Below are positions 23,956 to 32,039 of a DNA stretch of 64,000 bases, piece by piece. Under the pieces are notes generated by a model, which was not told the origin of the DNA, made no database searches, and saw only the letters and a program-made list of their open reading frames with translations. This stretch comes from Marinibacterium anthonyi (GTDB lineage Bacteria; Pseudomonadota; Alphaproteobacteria; Rhodobacterales; Rhodobacteraceae), in the NCBI GenBank assembly GCA_003217735.2, contig CP031590.1, positions 1 through 64,000 of the forward strand, in the 5' to 3' direction. Position numbers and translations under genes: made by a program. How positions within the stretch are numbered: position 1 is the first letter of the stretch; each line of letters begins with the position of its first letter.

Positions 23956-24385
23956 CGGTCCTCTGCAGCCTTGGCCGCTGACTTTCCCAAAAGGATCAGA
24001 AGAGACCCGCGCAGTCGGCGCGGGTCACATGTCCTCAGAGGTCAGGGCAGGGGATCGACGGGCGTGCGCCCGCTCACCCCCGCCCTGGCTGTCTCTTGTG
24101 ATCTGGTCCGCCCAACAGGCCTGCCCCGGAAAGTCAAAAGACAAGCGCCGCGCAGGCGCGTCGTCTCCGACGAGGACCGTGTCCTCGGCCTCCGGCCTGC
24201 GGGCCGCACCATCCTCGTCTCCGATCCTTTGACTGTCCGGTTCAGGCCCGTGGGTCGGGCTTCGCCCTCGCCCACTCTGTTCCGCCGAAAACATGCGTTT
24301 TCGGTCGGATCAGGTGGCTGAGGCGCAGCCCATCGGCGGAAGGAGGGCACCAAGCCTCCCCGTCCTACCATTCAGGAGGCCACAA
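23956..24385. other. 430-bp gene-free interval before ardC
   Basis: No gene is supported. It contains a perfect 8-bp hairpin, CCGAAAAC-ATGC-GTTTTCGG (24285-24304), and a GC-rich block of short repeats. The ardC ribosome site AGGAGG lies at 24374-24379. Confidence 0.5.
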
Positions 24386-25078
24386 ATGGCTAAATCGGAT
24401 TTCGACATCTACCAGCACGTCACCAACCAGATCATCGAGTCGATGGAGGCGGGCGTTTCGCCGTGGCGCAAGCCGTGGTCCGGCGGTGAGCAGGGCGGCA
24501 CATTCCCGCTGCGGGCGAATGGCGAGCCCTATCGGGGGATCAATGTGCTGATGCTCTGGCTTGCCGCCCATGCCAACGGGTTTGCTTCGGCGCATTGGTT
24601 CACCTTCAAGCAGGCCAAGGACCTTGGCGCGCATGTGCGCAAGGGGCAGAAATCCTCGACGGTGGTGAAATACGGGACCGTCGAGCGCGAGAATGATGAG
24701 GGCGAGGCGGTCGCGATCCCCTATGCCCGCGCCTATCGTGTCTTCAATGCGGACCAGATCGAAGGCTTGCCGGAAGAATTCTACAACCGTCCCGAGGTGC
24801 AGGAAGGTCTTGGCACGCGGCCCTTGCCGGAGGTCGATGCGTTTTTCCAAGCGGTCGGGGCCAATGTCACGCATGGCGGTGCACGGGCGTGCTATATCCC
24901 TTCGGAGGATCGGATCCAGATGCCGCCCGTATCCGCGTTCATTTCCGCGCAGCACTACACGGCGACGCTCTGTCACGAGGTCACGCATTGGACAGGGCAT
25001 CGGTCGCGGCTGGACCGCTTCAAGATGGGAAGCACGAAGGCAGATTATGCCCGCGAGGAGCTGATTGCCTTATCTTGA
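24386..25078 (+). pseudogene. ardC: ardC antirestriction gene, 5' part (split by a mobile element)
   Basis: The open part encodes 230 aa of an ArdC-like antirestriction protein. An N-terminal ssDNA-binding domain (IYQHVTNQIIESMEAG, PWSGGEQGG, GINVLMLWL) is followed by a zincin-like metallopeptidase domain with HEVTH. Translation stops 3 codons after REELIA, where the left end of a recombinase-trio element begins (25070). The missing C-terminal 66 residues lie at 31604-31804, beyond the element, in the same reading frame. ArdC proteins protect incoming plasmid DNA from restriction. This copy has the active-site motif but lacks the C-terminus. AGGAGG supports the start. Confidence 0.9.
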
Positions 25079-25083
25079 CAGTC
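25070..25083. repeat. Left terminal inverted repeat of the trio element
   Basis: TTATCTTGACAGTC follows the ardC codons ATT GCC directly. Twelve of the 14 bases match the complement of the right end at 31587-31600. Confidence 0.75.
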
Positions 25084-25132
25084 TGCACCGCATGCCACCC
25101 TGCCGTAGGATGGGTGACAGGCGTCGACGGTA

Positions 25133-25196
25133 GGCAGTTTTCAGGCTGGCCGCCGCGCTTACCAAAGAGCTGGCGGCGGCCAGCCTGAGAACTGCC
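25133..25196. repeat. Large inverted repeat inside the left end of the trio element
   Basis: Arms of about 24 bp (GGCAGTTTTCAGGCTGGCCG onward, and its complement ending in TGAGAACTGCC) with one mismatch enclose a 15-base loop. It lies between the left terminal repeat and the first recombinase. It could be a recombinase binding site or a hairpin that blocks read-through from ardC. Confidence 0.85.
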
Positions 25197-25243
25197 GGGC
25201 CGAAGCGTGCACCGGGTGGGGGCATGGGGAGGGTTTTGCGCTG

Positions 25244-26593
25244 GTGTCGATTATTTCTGTTTGCGAGCGTCGCGTGGCCGGGGGTCTCGACGCGCATGTG
25301 CCGTTGATCCTGCGCGGTGACGCGCTCTACGACCCCGATCTGGATCGCTTCTTTCTCGACCTGCCGCTATCGGGGATTCGATCGCGGCATTCGCTTCGCG
25401 CCCAGGCCTATGATGTGACAGTTTGGCTTCGCTTTCTCGATGCCTGCGGCAAGACCGTATGGGCTGCGACCCGCGACGATGTTGAGGCTTATCATCGTGC
25501 GCGCCGGCGCGGCGATGCTGGTCAGCGGATCACGGCGGCAAGCTGGAACAGGGCCGTCGCCAGCCTTGATCGCCTCTATCGCTGGGGCGAGCGGCAAGGG
25601 CTGATCGCCGAGGCACCGTTCAACCGTCGTGCCGTGTGGCGACCGGCGCAGGGTGGACGTCGCGGAATGATCGCCGCGCGCAACGACGCCTATGAACGCG
25701 TTGCGAAGCGGTCGGATGTCCGGTTCGTCACGATGGACGACTACCGCATCTTCCGCGAGGTCGGTCTGCGCGGCCTCGCGCCTGACGGCAGCGAACGCCC
25801 CGGCGCACGTGATCGGAACGGATTGCGCAACGCACTCTTCGCCGATCTGCTCGTCACGACAGGTTTGCGACTGGAAGAGGCCTCAGGTCTGCTCGCCGGT
25901 GATCTCGCGGTTATCGTTCCGGACGGCGATGAGAACCGGCAGCTCTGGCTGCGCCTGCCGCCGCCGCTCACCAAGGGCGATCGCGGACGAAGTGTTCTGG
26001 TCCCACGCCGGCTGCTTCGTCAGATCGCGGCCTATATCGATGTCGAGCGCGCGGCAGGCGCGGCCAAATTCGTCGCGCGCGATGGTGCGGCGTGCTTTGA
26101 CCGGCCGATCCATATCACCGACGCCGGTCTCGACCGCATGCGCGATGTCTGCACGCCAGAAGAACGATGCCGTCTGATCCTGTGCAGCGAGAACGGAACG
26201 CCGCGCGAGCCCGCGGCGCTATGGCTGACCGAGGTTGGACAGCCCGTTCGACCCAATTCCTGGGAGGTGATCTTCGCCCGCGCCTGCAAGCGCTGTAGAG
26301 ACTATGGTTTCTCGTTGTCGATCAGCCCGCACCAGCTGCGCCACACCTTCGCGGTCCATATGCTCGCCTTGCTGATCCAGGAGCGTCTGCGCGAAGCCGC
26401 ATTGCCGGCGGGGCCGATGGAGAGCTACCGGCTGATCCTGGGCGACCCGCTGCAGCAGGTGCAACGCCTGCTCGGCCACGCGAGTCTCGCCACCACCTAT
26501 ATCTATCTCGACCATATTGCGACCCGCGCCGATACGGTGGATTCGGCGGTCGAGGAGTTGCTGGCACTGCTGCCGGGACCGCAGGGCGCATGA
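25244..26593 (+). CDS. Tyrosine recombinase 1 of the trio
   Basis: A 449-aa tyrosine recombinase with an N-terminal core-binding domain (about residues 40-130) and a full catalytic domain. It has Arg about 209 in TTGLRLEEASGLL, His363-x-x-Arg366-His in SPHQLRHTFAV, His412 in LLGHASLATTY and the nucleophile Tyr about 421 (YIYLDH). It starts with GTG after GGGGAGGG. It is the only one of the three with every canonical catalytic residue, so it is probably the strand-cleaving partner. Its stop overlaps the next start (ATGA). Confidence 0.92.
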   Translation: MSIISVCERRVAGGLDAHVPLILRGDALYDPDLDRFFLDLPLSGIRSRHSLRAQAYDVTVWLRFLDACGKTVWAATRDDVEAYHRARRRGDAGQRITAASWNRAVASLDRLYRWGERQGLIAEAPFNRRAVWRPAQGGRRGMIAARNDAYERVAKRSDVRFVTMDDYRIFREVGLRGLAPDGSERPGARDRNGLRNALFADLLVTTGLRLEEASGLLAGDLAVIVPDGDENRQLWLRLPPPLTKGDRGRSVLVPRRLLRQIAAYIDVERAAGAAKFVARDGAACFDRPIHITDAGLDRMRDVCTPEERCRLILCSENGTPREPAALWLTEVGQPVRPNSWEVIFARACKRCRDYGFSLSISPHQLRHTFAVHMLALLIQERLREAALPAGPMESYRLILGDPLQQVQRLLGHASLATTYIYLDHIATRADTVDSAVEELLALLPGPQGA

Positions 26594-28377
26594 GCGGGCG
26601 TCCCCGCAAGGGCAGGCCCGTCGCTTTCGTACCCGTCACGCCGGAGCGAGCCAATCCCGATCCGGTGCTCGGCCTCAGGTTCGTCATCGAGGCGCGGCAT
26701 GGCGGGACCGTCCTGGTCGACATGACCGATCTCGATCCTCGTCCGCTCGCTATCGCCTTTGCCAGCGCGTTGCGCCGGTCGGCCGCGCTCGGCGGCCGGA
26801 TCGGTGCGGCCAGCGTCATCAAACAGTATGTAAACTCCTATCGCCGTTTCTTCACCTGGCTTTCCGATGAGGCGGGGGAGGTGGACGGGCCCGAAGACGT
26901 GCGCGCAGCCCATGTCGACGGTTTCGCATCGGCACTCGAACGCGGGGGAATGGGCGCGATCTACCGGCATGTGACGGTCAGCAAGATCGTCAATACGCTG
27001 CGTGCGATAGAGGCGGATCGGCCCGACAGGATCACGCCCGACCTCCATGAGCGGTTGCGCTATACAATGGCGACCTCGGCGGGACGCTCGACCCCGCGTG
27101 ATGCCTACAGTCCCTTCGTCGCCCGCGCGCTGCGCGACGCGGCCCGTACGGACGTGGAAGCGATATTCCGCCGGATCGGCGCCGAGGATCGGACCGATGA
27201 GGGCGATCCGGTCATTGCCGGAGCGCGGGCCGATGTCGAAGCTCTCATCGCGCGCCATGGAGCCGTTCGGACCGAGAGCGTCGAGCTGCGCCGTCTCTAT
27301 TTCATGCGCTTGCGGCGCGGTTTGCCGATCAGCACGCTGATCGACGACCTGCATCGCCGACATCATCTGCACGTCACCGATCTGCCGCCATTGCTCGTGC
27401 TGCTTGCTCTCGATACCGGCCTCGAGCCGGAATGCCTGAAGGCGCTGACGGTCGATTGCCTGGCCAATCCCTCCGCCGGAACCGTTGAACTTCGATACCT
27501 GAAGCGACGCGCCGGCGCCGCCGGGCACAAGAGCATGCGCGTGCGCGACGGCGGCCTCGGCACGCCGGGTGGCCTTCTCCGCCGGCTGATCGAGATCACG
27601 ACCGTCGCCCGTCAGCATCTGCCCACCGATTGTCTCTGGGTTTACCACAACGTCGGCGGTCTCCATGCCGGCATCCGTCATCCGCGCGAACGCCTCGACG
27701 CCTGGGTGGCACGGCACCGGATTGTCGATGAGGAGGGCAAGCCGCTCCATCTTCTGCTGTCCCGGCTTCGCAAAACCCACAAGGCGCTGTGGTACACCAA
27801 AACCGAGGGGTACATCGCCCGCTTCGCGGTCGGCCACACGCCCGAGGTCGCGGCGCGCCACTACGCCGATCTGCCATCGCTGCGGCCCCTGCACGAGGCC
27901 ACCGTCGCCGATGCCTTCCGCGACGCTGTCGTCGCCGCGATGCCGACCATCCTCGCGCCAGCAGCCGAGAAGACGCTGCGCGAAGCGCCCGAACAGGCCG
28001 GGCCGCTGATGCCGCCGGATGCGGTCGGTTCCATTCTCGATGGGGAGCAGGATCTCTGGCTCGCCGCCTGCGCGGGGTTCCATAGCAGCCCCTTCGCCGA
28101 GGCCGGCTCGCCATGCCAGCAGCCGTTCTGGGGATGCCTCCATTGCCCCAACGCCGTCATCACCGCCCGCAAGCTCCCCGCGATCATGGCCTTCCTGTCC
28201 TTCGTCGAAGACCAGCGGCAGGGGCTTCCCGGTCCCGACTGGATGGTCAAGTTCGGGCAGGTTCATGCCCGGATCGTCCATCAGATCTTGCCCGCGTTTT
28301 CCGATGCCGTTGTCGCCGAAGCGCGGTTACGCGCCGTGGAGGAGCGCCTCTATCTGCCCCCCGAGGCGCGCGCATGA
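26590..28377 (+). CDS. Tyrosine recombinase-like protein 2 of the trio
   Basis: A 595-aa protein with the layout of a tyrosine recombinase. The position of the first catalytic Arg reads LALDTGLEPECLKAL, with Glu in place of Arg. The second box is LLSRLRKTHKALW, and the last is VGHTPEVAARHYADL with His and Tyr kept. The C-terminal 120 residues include a Cys-rich PCQQPFWGCLHCPNAVIT that could bind zinc. The loss of one catalytic Arg suggests a helper rather than a self-sufficient recombinase. Overlaps of 4 bp on both sides imply coupled translation. Confidence 0.85.
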   Translation: MSGRPRKGRPVAFVPVTPERANPDPVLGLRFVIEARHGGTVLVDMTDLDPRPLAIAFASALRRSAALGGRIGAASVIKQYVNSYRRFFTWLSDEAGEVDGPEDVRAAHVDGFASALERGGMGAIYRHVTVSKIVNTLRAIEADRPDRITPDLHERLRYTMATSAGRSTPRDAYSPFVARALRDAARTDVEAIFRRIGAEDRTDEGDPVIAGARADVEALIARHGAVRTESVELRRLYFMRLRRGLPISTLIDDLHRRHHLHVTDLPPLLVLLALDTGLEPECLKALTVDCLANPSAGTVELRYLKRRAGAAGHKSMRVRDGGLGTPGGLLRRLIEITTVARQHLPTDCLWVYHNVGGLHAGIRHPRERLDAWVARHRIVDEEGKPLHLLLSRLRKTHKALWYTKTEGYIARFAVGHTPEVAARHYADLPSLRPLHEATVADAFRDAVVAAMPTILAPAAEKTLREAPEQAGPLMPPDAVGSILDGEQDLWLAACAGFHSSPFAEAGSPCQQPFWGCLHCPNAVITARKLPAIMAFLSFVEDQRQGLPGPDWMVKFGQVHARIVHQILPAFSDAVVAEARLRAVEERLYLPPEARA

Positions 28378-30590
28378 CCGCGCCCGCCCTTGCCCGCGCG
28401 CATGCGTTCGATGATCGGCCCGTGCTGGCGTGCGCGCCGCTCAAGCCGGGCCATGCCCGCGAGGACCTGTCGCGCGTCGGCGATCCAAGCTGGAATCTGG
28501 GTCCCGCCGTCTTCCGTGAGAACGCCCGGCGCTGCCACGTCACCGTGCATTTCGACGTGCTCGAAGATGCCGATGTGCAGGCAATGATGCGCGCCTATCT
28601 CTATGCGCGTCTCAATGTCGACCTTCCCGGCCATCGTCCGAAGCTGCCGCCCAGCTGCGTGCGGCAGGCGTTCAACCGGGCGCGGCGCTTCTTCGGCTTC
28701 GTCCGCGAACGATTGGGCGCGCTGGACCTTGCCCGCATTGATCCTCCGCTGATCGACGCCTACGCGCGGCATCTCCGAGAGGACCCGGCAAGGCGGCCCG
28801 TCATTGTCGGGCAGCTTCTCGAGGTCGTCATCGACTTCTATCTCTACCGCGAGCACCTTCCCGGCGGCGGCTTGTCGTTCGAACCGTGGGACGGGCGGCC
28901 ACCCGCGCGCGTCGCGGGCTATCGTCATGTTCCCGAGAACCGGACCCCGCGCATCCCCGAGCCGATCATTGCGCCGCTTCTGGCATGGTCGCTGCGCTAC
29001 ATCACGGTATTCGCAGGGGACATTCTCGCCGCCCGGCGTGAGCTTTCCCGGCTCGAAGCGCGCCGCGACCGGCTCTTCGTTGCGGAACAGGGATTGCCGC
29101 ATGCGGAGCGCCGCCGCCGGCAACGGCAGCGACTGGTGCGCTATTTCCGGTCCCGCGCGCGGCAAGGTCGGGGCGTGCCGGTCTGGGCAAGTCCGCCCAA
29201 CGGTTCCGCATCCGTCGATCCGGTAAGCGGGGAGCTTCTGCCCGTCGTCAACGTGCAGCTTCTGCATCTTCACGTAGGCGTCGATGCCGCCAGGGAGCCG
29301 GCGATGCATCTCGCTCTCGCCGGCGGCGCGTCCGATCTCATCGCCGCCGCCATCGCGGATATCGGGATCGAACCCGGCGGCATGGATACGCCGATCTCGG
29401 TCGATGCCGATCTCGACCGGCCATGGCGGCTCCGCTTCGATGCCAAATCCCTCGTCTTGGAAGAGCGCATGCTGCAGGCAGCGGCTTATGTGGTCTGCGC
29501 CTATCTGACCGGTATGCGCGATTGCGAGGTGCAGGCGATGCGCCGGGGATGCCTGACGCTTGCGCGCAGCGAGGACGGCACCGTGTCACGACACCGCGTC
29601 CGTTCCACCGCCTACAAGGGAAAGGGGGCCCGGGGAGCGCAGGCGGAGTGGGTGACCATCGAGCCCGTCGCCGATGCGATCGGGGTGCTCGAACAGTTGA
29701 CCCGGCGCGCGGCTGTTGCCCATGGCCTCGATACGCTCTGGCCCGTGCTGTCTGTGACGCGAAGTAGCAAACCGCACGTCTCCGCCGAGATCGTGCGCCA
29801 GATCAACGCCTATCGTGACCACCTGAACAGGCTGTTCGGGACGGAAGAGGCGCCCGCCATACCGCCCGGGCCGGACGGCAAGCCCTGGCGGATCACGACC
29901 CGCCAGTTTCGTCGCACGATCGCATGGCACATCGCCAACCGTCCCTTCGGAACGGTGGCCGGCATGATCCAGTACAAGCATGCATCCGTCGCCGCGTTCG
30001 AAGGCTACGCGGGTAGCAGCGCCTCGGGTTTCCGCGCCGAGGTCGAGGCGCAACGCCGGCTCGGCCAGATCGATGATCTGCTCGAGTATTTCGACAGGCG
30101 GCGCGGCGGGGCCGACCTTGGTGGGCCGGCCGGTCCTCGTGTCGCGCGTACCCTCGACGAGACATCCACCGAGCTTGGGCCATTGCCGCCGATGATCGCC
30201 GACCGGTCCCGTCTGCGCACCATGCTCGCCAGTCTGGCCCGCACCCTGCATGTCGGACCGCTTGCCGATTGCTTCTTCGATCCGGCAACCGCCCTGTGCC
30301 TCAAGCGCGTGACAGATGCCGCGGCAGACCGCCCGCTGACAGCACTTTGTGAACCGACCCGCTGCCCGAACGCCTGCATCGCGGAACATCACAGGCCAGT
30401 CTGGGAGCGGAGTGCCGATGAGGCACGCATGTTGCTGCGCGAGAAGCGACTGCCCGGATTGCAGCGGGCCGCGCTCCAGCAGGAGGTTGACCGGATCGAG
30501 GGCGTGCTGGCCCGGATCGCGCCTGAGGGCGCGGCGCCGCCCGTTCGGGCGGCGGTAAAGGGAGAGGAAGCTTGGGATCGGGGTGAGTGA
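28374..30590 (+). CDS. Tyrosine recombinase-like protein 3 of the trio
   Basis: A 738-aa protein, the largest of the trio. Its catalytic domain (about residues 350-560) has Arg in YLTGMRDCEVQAM, an Arg-for-His change in TTRQFRRTIAWH, and His and Tyr in IQYKHASVAAFEGYAG. The C-terminus has a cysteine set, CFFDPATALCLK then CEPTRCPNACI, resembling the Cys-rich tail of protein 2. The ATG at 28374 overlaps the stop of gene 2 as ATGA and is preferred over upstream in-frame starts. It probably acts with the other two on the element ends. Confidence 0.85.
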   Translation: MTAPALARAHAFDDRPVLACAPLKPGHAREDLSRVGDPSWNLGPAVFRENARRCHVTVHFDVLEDADVQAMMRAYLYARLNVDLPGHRPKLPPSCVRQAFNRARRFFGFVRERLGALDLARIDPPLIDAYARHLREDPARRPVIVGQLLEVVIDFYLYREHLPGGGLSFEPWDGRPPARVAGYRHVPENRTPRIPEPIIAPLLAWSLRYITVFAGDILAARRELSRLEARRDRLFVAEQGLPHAERRRRQRQRLVRYFRSRARQGRGVPVWASPPNGSASVDPVSGELLPVVNVQLLHLHVGVDAAREPAMHLALAGGASDLIAAAIADIGIEPGGMDTPISVDADLDRPWRLRFDAKSLVLEERMLQAAAYVVCAYLTGMRDCEVQAMRRGCLTLARSEDGTVSRHRVRSTAYKGKGARGAQAEWVTIEPVADAIGVLEQLTRRAAVAHGLDTLWPVLSVTRSSKPHVSAEIVRQINAYRDHLNRLFGTEEAPAIPPGPDGKPWRITTRQFRRTIAWHIANRPFGTVAGMIQYKHASVAAFEGYAGSSASGFRAEVEAQRRLGQIDDLLEYFDRRRGGADLGGPAGPRVARTLDETSTELGPLPPMIADRSRLRTMLASLARTLHVGPLADCFFDPATALCLKRVTDAAADRPLTALCEPTRCPNACIAEHHRPVWERSADEARMLLREKRLPGLQRAALQQEVDRIEGVLARIAPEGAAPPVRAAVKGEEAWDRGE

Positions 30591-30641
30591 CGGGATGAGG
30601 AGAGCGGGAGAGGCCTGCTCCGCCCGTCCTGGAGACCTGTC

Positions 30642-31544
30642 ATGTCCCGATCTTTCTCATCGGCCGGGCGCGCCGATGTTTATAACCGTATCACCTCCGA
30701 GATCATCGCCGCCATCGAGGCCGGCGCCGGCGACTGGCGTGCGCCCTGGTTCCACAACGGGAGCAGCATCGCGCGTCCGACCAACGTTTCATCCGGCAAG
30801 CGCTATCGCGGCATAAACACCTTGGCGCTCTGGGCCACGGGCTTTGCCGCCGGATATGACGACGGTCTCTGGGGCACCTACAAGCGATGGCAGGATTCCG
30901 GCGCGCAGGTGCGTAAAGGAGAACGCTCCACCACGGTCGTCTTGTGGAGGGAGATCAAGGTTTCCCAGCAGGCCGACGACGAAGACGATGATGACGGGCA
31001 TCGACGGATGTTCGCCCGCGCATTTTCTGTCTTCAATATTGCTCAGGTGGACGGGTACGAGCGCCCGGCGACCCCTGTGCTGCCCGAAGATGAACGCCTT
31101 GCCCATGCGGAAGCGTTCATTACAAACCTGGGCGTCAAGACGGAGTTCGGTGGATCGGAAGCCTATTACCGCCCGTCGTCCGACACCGTGTTTATGCCGC
31201 CGTTCACTTCGTTTCGCGATGCCGCGTCATTCTACGGTGTCTGGCTACACGAGAATGGTCACGCCAGTGGCGCAAAGCACAGGCTCGACCGCGACCTTTC
31301 CGGTCGCTTTGGTTCGGCCGCCTATGCCGCCGAAGAATGCTGCGTGGAAATTCTCAGCGGGCTCGTCTTGGCAGACCTCGGGATCGCCCACCATCCGCGC
31401 CCCGATCATGCCGCCTATATTGCCTCGTGGCTCAAGGTCCTGAAAGACGACCCCAAGGCCATCTTCACAGCCGCCAGCAAGGCGCAGCAGGCGGCCGACT
31501 GGATGCATGCGCAGCAGCCCCATGCAGAGGAGGTAGCGGCATGA
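30642..31544 (+). CDS. ardC: ArdC-like antirestriction protein (passenger copy)
   Basis: A complete 300-aa ArdC-type protein. The N-terminal ssDNA-binding domain reads VYNRITSEIIAAIEAGAG, then YRGINTLALWA and VRKGERSTTVV. The zincin domain has WLHENGHASG (HExxH) and the second metal-ligand region AAEECCVEI. The C-terminal helix block is ADLGIAHHPRPDHAAYIASW. It is diverged from the split host copy at 24386. It lies inside the trio element, 52 bp after the third recombinase. By position and family it may protect incoming DNA from restriction; the second copy may compensate for the one the element broke. Confidence 0.92.
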   Translation: MSRSFSSAGRADVYNRITSEIIAAIEAGAGDWRAPWFHNGSSIARPTNVSSGKRYRGINTLALWATGFAAGYDDGLWGTYKRWQDSGAQVRKGERSTTVVLWREIKVSQQADDEDDDDGHRRMFARAFSVFNIAQVDGYERPATPVLPEDERLAHAEAFITNLGVKTEFGGSEAYYRPSSDTVFMPPFTSFRDAASFYGVWLHENGHASGAKHRLDRDLSGRFGSAAYAAEECCVEILSGLVLADLGIAHHPRPDHAAYIASWLKVLKDDPKAIFTAASKAQQAADWMHAQQPHAEEVAA

Positions 31545-31804
31545 CCAAAACCGTTCTCATTGCCGAAAAATTTCAGAATGGGGCTGGACTGTCAGGATAT
31601 GTCGCCGAAATTGGCAGCTGCTTCCTTGGGGCGCGCATTGGCGTAGAGCCGACCATCGACGAGGCCGCATCTTACCTCGAGAGCTGGCTCGGGGTGCTGA
31701 AAGAGGACAAGCGGGCAATCTTCAAGGCCGCGAGCGCCGCGCAGAAGGCCGCGGACTTTGTTTTGGAAGCCGCCGCCGCCGGTGGGGATTTACGCGCCGC
31801 CTGA
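31541..31804 (+). pseudogene. ardC 3' part, fused to element-end sequence
   Basis: From 31604 the frame reads EIGSCFLGARIGVEPTIDEA and ends in AAQKAADFVLEAAAAGGDL, the missing C-terminus of the ardC begun at 24386. The frame is open upstream through the element's right end to an ATG at 31541 that overlaps the passenger ardC stop (ATGA). An 87-aa chimera could therefore be translated. On its own it lacks both ArdC functional domains. A terminator hairpin follows at 31827. Confidence 0.85.
31587..31600. repeat. Right terminal inverted repeat of the trio element
   Basis: GACTGTCAGGATAT is the complement of ATATCCTGACAGTC. It matches the left end (25070-25083) at 12 of 14 bases and lies 3 bp before the resumed ardC codons (GCC GAA). 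Confidence 0.75.
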
Positions 31805-31826
31805 GCAGATCGGCAAGACTTCGCAA

Positions 31827-31848
31827 GGGGCCCGCATTTGCGGGCCCC
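31827..31848 (+). terminator. Hairpin after the ardC 3' part
   Basis: GGGGCCCGC-ATTT-GCGGGCCCC is a perfect 9-bp stem 23 bp after the ardC stop, followed by ATCTGTTTG. The weak T-run makes termination likely but not certain. Confidence 0.65.
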
Positions 31849-31926
31849 ATCTGTTTGAAGTCCATACATATGTATGACTCTATGGACGCCACTACAGGCA
31901 CGCGGCCTGGCCCCGGGAAAAATTTG

Positions 31927-31954
31927 CCGCGCCGAGACATCTGTCTCGCCGCGG
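31927..31954. promoter_or_regulatory. Extended dyad upstream of the parAB operon (candidate parS or operator)
   Basis: CCGCG-C-CGAGACA-TC-TGTCTCG-C-CGCGG: two nested perfect arms (5 and 7 bp) around a 2-bp centre. It lies 85 bp before the ribbon-helix-helix gene that heads the parA-parB operon. Such a dyad suits a ParB-binding centromere or an operator for the small regulator. Confidence 0.55.
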
Positions 31955-32039
31955 CGGCCTGTGGCCAAGGTCAGTCGCCCTGCATCAGGGTGCCGCGCAT
32001 ATGTCAGCCGAAATCCGACTGCGTTTTGCGGAGAGGTCG

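Follow-up and report, generated by a model that had tools for sequence, protein, structure and literature searches.

Why should a mobile element that breaks an ardC gene carry an ardC of its own? The question is raised by a locus in the 64,000-nt stretch of Marinibacterium anthonyi DNA analyzed here (contig CP031590.1; "the window"), in which a 6,531-bp element occupies positions 25070–31600 and the gene that flanks it, and that it interrupts, is itself an ardC. All features of the window described below lie on the forward strand. The N-terminal part of the target gene (24386–25069), covering the ArdC-N domain and the first two thirds of the metallopeptidase domain, reads REELIA and then Leu-Ser-stop; the C-terminal part (31607–31804) is in frame again at 31601/31607. 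The first-pass annotation of this DNA had proposed just such a split, with the C-terminus resuming in the same frame, and the reading frames and the Pfam match agree on it, the MPTase-PolyVal domain (PF18818) of the target being cut between profile positions 82 and 83. An uninterrupted ardC in which the codons are joined exists as well: L164, a close relative of the target, reads KADYAREELIAEIGSCFLGARIGV.

The exact ends of the element, 25070 and 31600, are defined by the identical ends of other copies. They read TTATCTTGACAGTC on the left (25070–25083) and GACTGTCAGGATAT on the right (31587–31600) and are imperfect inverted repeats of 13–14 bp. Such repeats had been noticed at both joints at first sight, and TATCYTGACAGTC is in fact found without mismatch only there, in inverted orientation; at up to two mismatches it has four matches against 1.01 expected. 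Next to the ends lie two 6-bp spacers, ATTGCC (Ile-Ala; 25064–25069) on the left and GTCGCC (Val-Ala; 31601–31606) on the right, which we take, judging by the ligD case described below, to be the target's own bases and a footprint imported from an earlier site, respectively. Inside the element, an intA-like tyrosine recombinase gene (449 aa; 25244–26593), a tfp-like gene (595 aa; 26590–28377) and an intB-like gene (738 aa; 28374–30590) follow one another with a 4-bp overlap at each junction, as expected from the earlier description of three overlapping recombinase genes, and are followed by the full, diverged passenger ardC that had also been described, a complete gene for a 300-aa protein at 30642–31544. 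The names intA, tfp and intB are given by analogy (gene order, size and overlap), and for the third gene the ATG at 28374 was adopted, the list of open reading frames also offering an earlier start. Of the three proteins, only IntA has a Pfam match (Phage_int_SAM_1 and Phage_integrase); its matches to XerC/XerD-type NCBIfam models fall below their cut-offs, and in NCBIfam neither Tfp and IntB nor the two ArdCs reach a match at E = 0.001 or better. The tfp-like protein has a Glu at what we take to be the place of the first catalytic Arg. The cargo ArdC matches the solved ArdC chains 6i89 and 6sna and consists, as do the two target halves together, of an ArdC-N and a zincin-like metallopeptidase domain.

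Between the left end and intA, the leader (25071–25243) has a folding z score of −6.3 against shuffled sequences, mainly from a long hairpin just inside the left end (25133–25196). The hairpin recurs throughout the family and is conserved with compensatory changes: in an alignment of 22 elements, pairing is kept in 93.9% of cells, compared with 82.4% for shuffled versions (none of 500 as high) and at most 44.3% when the alignment is slid, and 13 of its 23 pairs have changed on both sides. Rfam has no match anywhere in 24300–32000, hairpin included; leader control of intA and a single-strand signal are possible roles.

Used as a query against its own genome, the element gives 17 matches, among them five complete copies with no difference over 6,531 bp, a sixth copy on contig C11 whose middle reads N, and a seventh on contig C5 that breaks off within the cargo ardC. 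Each of the seven has its left end at the same codon of an ardC. A PF18818 search of the genome returns 19 matches, namely six cargo genes, seven split N-terminal parts and six C-terminal parts; by this search the genome has no intact non-cargo ardC, all seven being split. Contig C1 holds three copies, of which L002 and L003 share the same right flank and perhaps go back to a single duplication event. Identical copies can confuse an assembly, and one copy here has a run of N, yet the same arrangement is found in complete plasmid records of several genera, and we give an assembly artefact next to no chance.

How strictly the element chooses ardC was judged from relatives in other genomes, obtained by a scan of genome contigs (the best 80 of 203 were kept) and supplemented with 13 loci from plasmid records; the loci of M. 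anthonyi itself are included in the counts. The hosts of these best 80 of 203 are alphaproteobacteria, except for metagenome-assembled genomes with other or no labels. The first-pass annotation had called for a search for other copies with the same ends, and such copies were found: an ardC holds 67 of the 69 left ends that could be read in the fetched loci (63 of the 67 confirmed by tblastn; L027, L033, L057 and L093 judged on short flanking sequence, in one case just 8 nt), and the left spacer fits RTNGCN at 66 of 69 loci, or at 60 of 63 when distinct 40-nt left flanks are counted. One copy (L018) is in an ardC with a spacer one base short, one (L015) has its left end in ligD, and one (L017) has its left end outside ardC, in a different gene. 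No right end turned up within the 13.4 kb retrieved for this last copy (L017:4001, Sphingobium yanoikuyae), downstream of which the record lists an IS1380-like transposase. The five codons before the left end translate to EELVA at 43, EELIA at 12, EEIVA at nine and EECVA at one of the 68 loci with enough sequence, the remaining three being odd. The target is approximately GAR GAR NTN / RTN GCN / GAR, the DNA for the metal-ligand helix of ArdC. Target ardC genes are dispersed across the ArdC tree, and it is because this helix is conserved that very different ardC genes can serve as targets. We consider site-specific targeting of ardC to be well supported. The plasmid records that were opened annotate the integrases and both halves of the split ardC as genes of their own, if at all. 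At two loci (L012 and L020), near-identical left target halves are joined to different right halves, as if element copies had served as recombination points between ardC genes.

In the ArdC of R388, the metal ligands are H201, H205 and E229, with E228 near (PMC7213743); matched by position, we infer that the Glu-Glu of REELIA corresponds to E228–E229. The E229A mutant of R388 ArdC still promotes conjugation into P. putida (PMC7213743), so the truncated ArdC may not be dead, and the split target gene may retain function.

The ligD insertion reveals the polarity of the spacers. In Shinella sumterensis (CP132317; L015), the left spacer is AGCCCC and the right one ATCGCC; three relatives with ligD were fetched, and in the two in which the site could be located, the empty site reads AGTCCC (L302) and AGCTCC (L303). 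As the empty site resembles the left spacer, that spacer comes from the target itself; the right one has Ile-Ala codons and was imported, an ardC being its simplest source. Left and right spacers are identical at 14 of the 57 loci where both are readable. The same rule, by which the target provides the left spacer and the incoming element the right one, has been described for the strand-biased circularizing integrative elements (SEs; intA-tfp-intB-srap) (PMC10214605), and the feature that goes with it, a 6-bp fingerprint of the target on the left and a footprint of the previous site on the right, is found here in the spacers and the empty ligD site. SE-like spacer exchange is well supported in our view, and as the right 6-bp footprints record the previous site, jumps of the element become traceable.

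To what class, then, does the element belong? The first-pass annotation called it a recombinase-trio (RIT) element, which it resembles in having three adjacent recombinase genes, but this class does not fit and is ruled out by the protein sizes (449, 595 and 738 aa), the 13–14-bp ends and the middle protein with Glu for the first Arg; the archetypal RIT has recombinases of 315–410 aa, all with the catalytic Tyr, and ends of 34-bp repeats (PMC10214605). Gene order, short imperfect inverted ends, 6-bp spacers and spacer polarity are instead those of an SE, and the intA-tfp-intB operon next to the left end is present by order, size and overlap. Against the SE host plasmid pSEA1, the IntB profile matches a 720-aa ORF (E = 2.2e-6), followed by an overlapping 135-aa ORF; the Tfp profile found nothing there. 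The ardC-targeting clade differs from the SEs in lacking a srap-like gene, in having more copies per genome and in carrying a paralog of its target, and the SE authors report no homologs of Tfp or Srap in Alphaproteobacteria (PMC10214605). The GInt genomic islands (ginABCD) are, going by their published description, similar in that three genes of the recombinase family lie at one end, the repeats are imperfect, exchange is staggered by 6 nt and insertion is in conserved genes (PMC5385486); they have a small ginD, whereas the ardC-targeting clade has no fourth small gene and only its distant relatives share this feature. Blocks of ginC-ginD are absent from Alphaproteobacteria according to the SE authors (PMC10214605), and the main text of the GInt paper contains no occurrence of ardC (PMC5385486). 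By its gene sizes, its 6-bp spacers and their polarity, the trio element is SE/GInt-like and not a classic RIT. A further parallel is Tn552-II (Tn554-type; tnpABC plus a target-gene-like gene, tgl), which carries a gene resembling its target and has an att imported at its right end, and for which its authors raise the possibility that tgl rescues the function of the target (PMC12486829); it differs in being staphylococcal, in having another target and in that its tgl keeps a copy of att, where the cargo ArdC here is altered. The idea of rescue by a target-like gene is already in print for Tn552-II, and the targeting of ardC and the altered cargo would be new, no report of either having been found in titles and abstract openings of the literature. 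We also found no name for this recombinase family of alphaproteobacterial plasmids.

If the element regularly breaks ardC, does it also regularly carry one? The first-pass annotation had asked whether each copy of the trio does, and most do: of 68 complete elements, 63 have a cargo ardC, which is absent from L054, L067, L075, L079 and L084, as well as from a Sinorhizobium medicae element (L021/L231). Four copies (L037, L048, L093 and L097) have extra genes after the cargo ardC that, judged by eye from their translations, resemble genes for metal handling (mercury, arsenic, chromate). For 12 pairs compared, the dN/dS of the cargo is 0.04–0.30, the same range as for the recombinases, the cargo ardC of these pairs being under purifying selection. 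In a first ArdC tree, the cargo genes (55 rows) stand alone on one side of a branch; in a later tree, with deep lineages and domain-only rows added, the long-branch targets L058 and L011 excluded and 23 of the 55 cargo rows kept, three other ArdCs (L227, L230 and L344) fall inside the cargo clade. Compared with L014, the window's cargo is 90% identical and its trio proteins 56–69%; compared with L012, the trio proteins are 82–87% identical and the cargo 62%. As these ranks differ, cargo and trio have swapped partners. Cargo and target belong to the same gene family, and the cargo might for this reason be a target remnant picked up long ago through imprecise ends; the cargo is, however, full length, conserved and close to a single lineage instead of being dispersed among the target diversity, and dN/dS and tree position lead us to exclude a remnant, which we regard as very improbable.

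The cargo differs from the targets at the very place where the element inserts. In the window, the target codons for EELIAE correspond by sequence comparison to cargo codons for EECCVE (31332–31349), within which TGCGTG (31341–31346) is equivalent to the spacer. Among 59 distinct cargo translations, partial ones included, this place reads EEATAE in 22, EECCVE in 19, EEICAE in eight, EEACAE in four, EELTAE in three, and EECLVE, EECSVE and EELVAE in one each, the single EELVAE being that of L099; in the EELTAE cargo, the flanking codons match a target and the spacer alone differs. The fourth residue is Ile or Val in one of the 59 translations (one of 83 loci) as compared with 183 of 199 ArdCs at large. 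The latter comprise an order sample (89 of 90; 30 given loci and 60 picked by hand among the matches listed), a class sample (34 of 40; 40 of the 44 full-length matches not already sampled) and a sphingomonad sample (60 of 69; 30 given and 40 picked, less the mis-parsed L283, and including L344, which lies inside the cargo clade in the later tree). Freedom from the element was checked for the class genomes (IntB at E = 1e-100 in one of 385, namely M. anthonyi), and the order and sphingomonad samples may include carriers.

Do these codons protect the cargo? Most elements bring a cargo-type ardC with them, and yet such a gene holds none of the 69 readable left ends. Of the right footprints, eight of 69 do not fit RTNGCN (TGCGCC four times, and ACCGCC, ACGGCC, CGAGCC and AGGGCG), which makes earlier use of altered-type sites probable, and we infer that the resistance of the cargo to insertion would not be absolute. 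These odd spacers, with Cys, Thr or Arg codons, are at L037, L038, L062, L066, L074, L088, L095 and L099, and no readable left spacer in an ardC has them; the idea that they derive from the element's own cargo fits two of the eight loci (L088 and L038). On the supporting side, GInt integration is reported to rise tenfold when three bases are changed to make the attachment site more target-like (PMC5385486). The altered codon may go back to one old event, the cargo being close to one clade, and could then be a neutral mark of an ArdC lineage picked up by chance, with no resistance and the cargo a simple passenger, comparable to the additional genes that some copies have. Besides the near-single clade, it speaks for such a mark that Cys, Thr, Arg or Ala is also found at this position in 15 of 109 class and sphingomonad ArdCs (6 of 40 and 9 of 69) and that footprints of this kind exist. 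Nevertheless, the position varies among Cys, Thr, Ser and Leu inside the clade while Ile/Val is found in only one of 59, the cargo-type gene is spared by all readable insertions, and there is a second pair of target and cargo (see below); a neutral mark therefore seems unlikely to us, at perhaps one chance in several.

The intact non-cargo ArdCs of carrier genomes and plasmids bear on a replacing role of the cargo. Ile or Val is present in 13 of 20, and eight of 20 are fully canonical, and the retention of canonical intact ardC genes counts against replacement. The altered ones, seven of 20, compare with 15 of 109 in the class and sphingomonad samples at p = 0.046 and with the class sample alone at p = 0.10, for a hand-picked set of 20 from which the shorter matches G672:C63 and G679:C4 were omitted and in which L227 groups with the cargo in the later tree. 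This is a weak hint that the intact ardC genes of carriers are escape variants.

Deeper relatives, reached through 289 plasmid records by tblastn with IntB and divided into sister groups by percent identity, provide the second pair. In the group at 56–57% identity (H65, H66, H68, H69 and H70 examined, H67 left out), four of five records (L347, L348, L366 and L367) have a small gene interrupted by the element behind its EELRA or EELKA, with a 57-aa paralog of the split gene directly behind intB in every case. Small cargo and small target align with a score of 78 against 24.9 ± 4.7 for shuffles in L367 and 58 against 30.2 ± 5.7 in L347; L366 has two right-end-like sites. The cargo of this pair reads NELRAEL and the target IEELRA or REELKA, but the uninterrupted members found of the small-gene family read NEL, IEL or AEL and also lack the first GAR codon, so the small-gene cargo is not special at this place. 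The fifth record (L349) lies in an ardC, with no cargo ardC and no right end found. In L359–L362, whose IntB is 47–48% identical to that of L347, the ArdC cargo reads EECTVE; the left flank of L360 and the right flank of L359 place these two in an ardC, L361 begins at a contig end, and L362 carries a cargo ArdC but sits outside an ardC. L350, with an IntB 45% identical to that of the window, has an EECCVE ArdC in reverse orientation, and no ardC at all was found in L351, L352 and L364.

These relatives also bear on whether the cargo ArdC serves the element rather than the plasmid, as a single-stranded-DNA-binding helper in place of the small fourth protein (Srap, GinD or TnpC) or as an anti-restriction protein in new hosts, the ardC target being secondary. 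The fourth gene is essential in both SE and GInt (PMC10214605, PMC5385486), and ArdC does bind single-stranded DNA (PMC7213743). A small gene overlaps or follows intB in L350, L352, L353, L354 and L359–L363, and the ardC-targeting clade has none, the next gene after intB being ardC; hence the need for a fourth protein has been lost there, or another protein does the work. Such genes overlap intB at L350:5507-5842, L352:9112-9537 and L354:9064-9432; the two tested have Pfam helix-turn-helix and DUF6262 matches below curated cut-offs, and the fourth-gene motif was not found in L351 and L364, where it was searched for. On the other hand, L359–L362 have both the fourth gene and a cargo ArdC, L054, which lacks both, nonetheless lies in an ardC at either end, and what the small-gene elements carry in its place is a paralog of the gene that they split. 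We consider a helper role of this kind unlikely, about as much so as the neutral mark.

The reading that we prefer, and regard as probable, is that a site-specific SE/GInt-like element breaks ardC and supplies an intact ArdC that its family seldom or never hits. The three recombinase-family proteins would move the element, a circular form with a 6-bp spacer recombining with the DNA for the ArdC metal-ligand helix, such that the target's six bases remain at the left end and the circle's six, from the previous site, go to the right end. A dedicated cargo ArdC lineage with altered codons at the target place would then supply intact ArdC, the alterations presumably lowering insertion and the cargo presumably replacing the lost function. 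The parts of this reading that are legible in the DNA are the ends, the spacers and their polarity, the target site, the identical copies, the conservation of the cargo, its altered codons and the second target–cargo pair. The replacement idea, already put forward in the first-pass annotation, is supported along with that annotation's insertion in ardC, element ends and diverged passenger ardC; the presence of the cargo in 63 of 68 complete elements and the purifying selection speak for it. The five complete elements and the S. medicae element without cargo, L349 in an ardC with no cargo found, and L362 outside an ardC count against it. In our best reading, which is provisional, the cargo ArdC would be a replacement retained for being a poor target.

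The findings suggest that these elements replace the gene that they break with a copy that they rarely break, and they mark a recombinase family of alphaproteobacterial plasmids. More tentatively, and with the chances somewhat against it, the family may be a natural break-and-replace system that evolves matched pairs of target gene and cargo paralog, for at least two target genes, the paralog being a poor target for the family's own recombinases and dependence setting in once the ordinary copies are filled. It would then be a bacterial counterpart of the engineered 'cleave and rescue' drives. With the ordinary copies filled, as in this genome, the cell or plasmid would depend on the element's copy; in this manner, an element that breaks genes could spread without much cost and then be difficult to lose, and it would be a case, open to testing, of a cargo gene that evades the recombinase of the very element that carries it.
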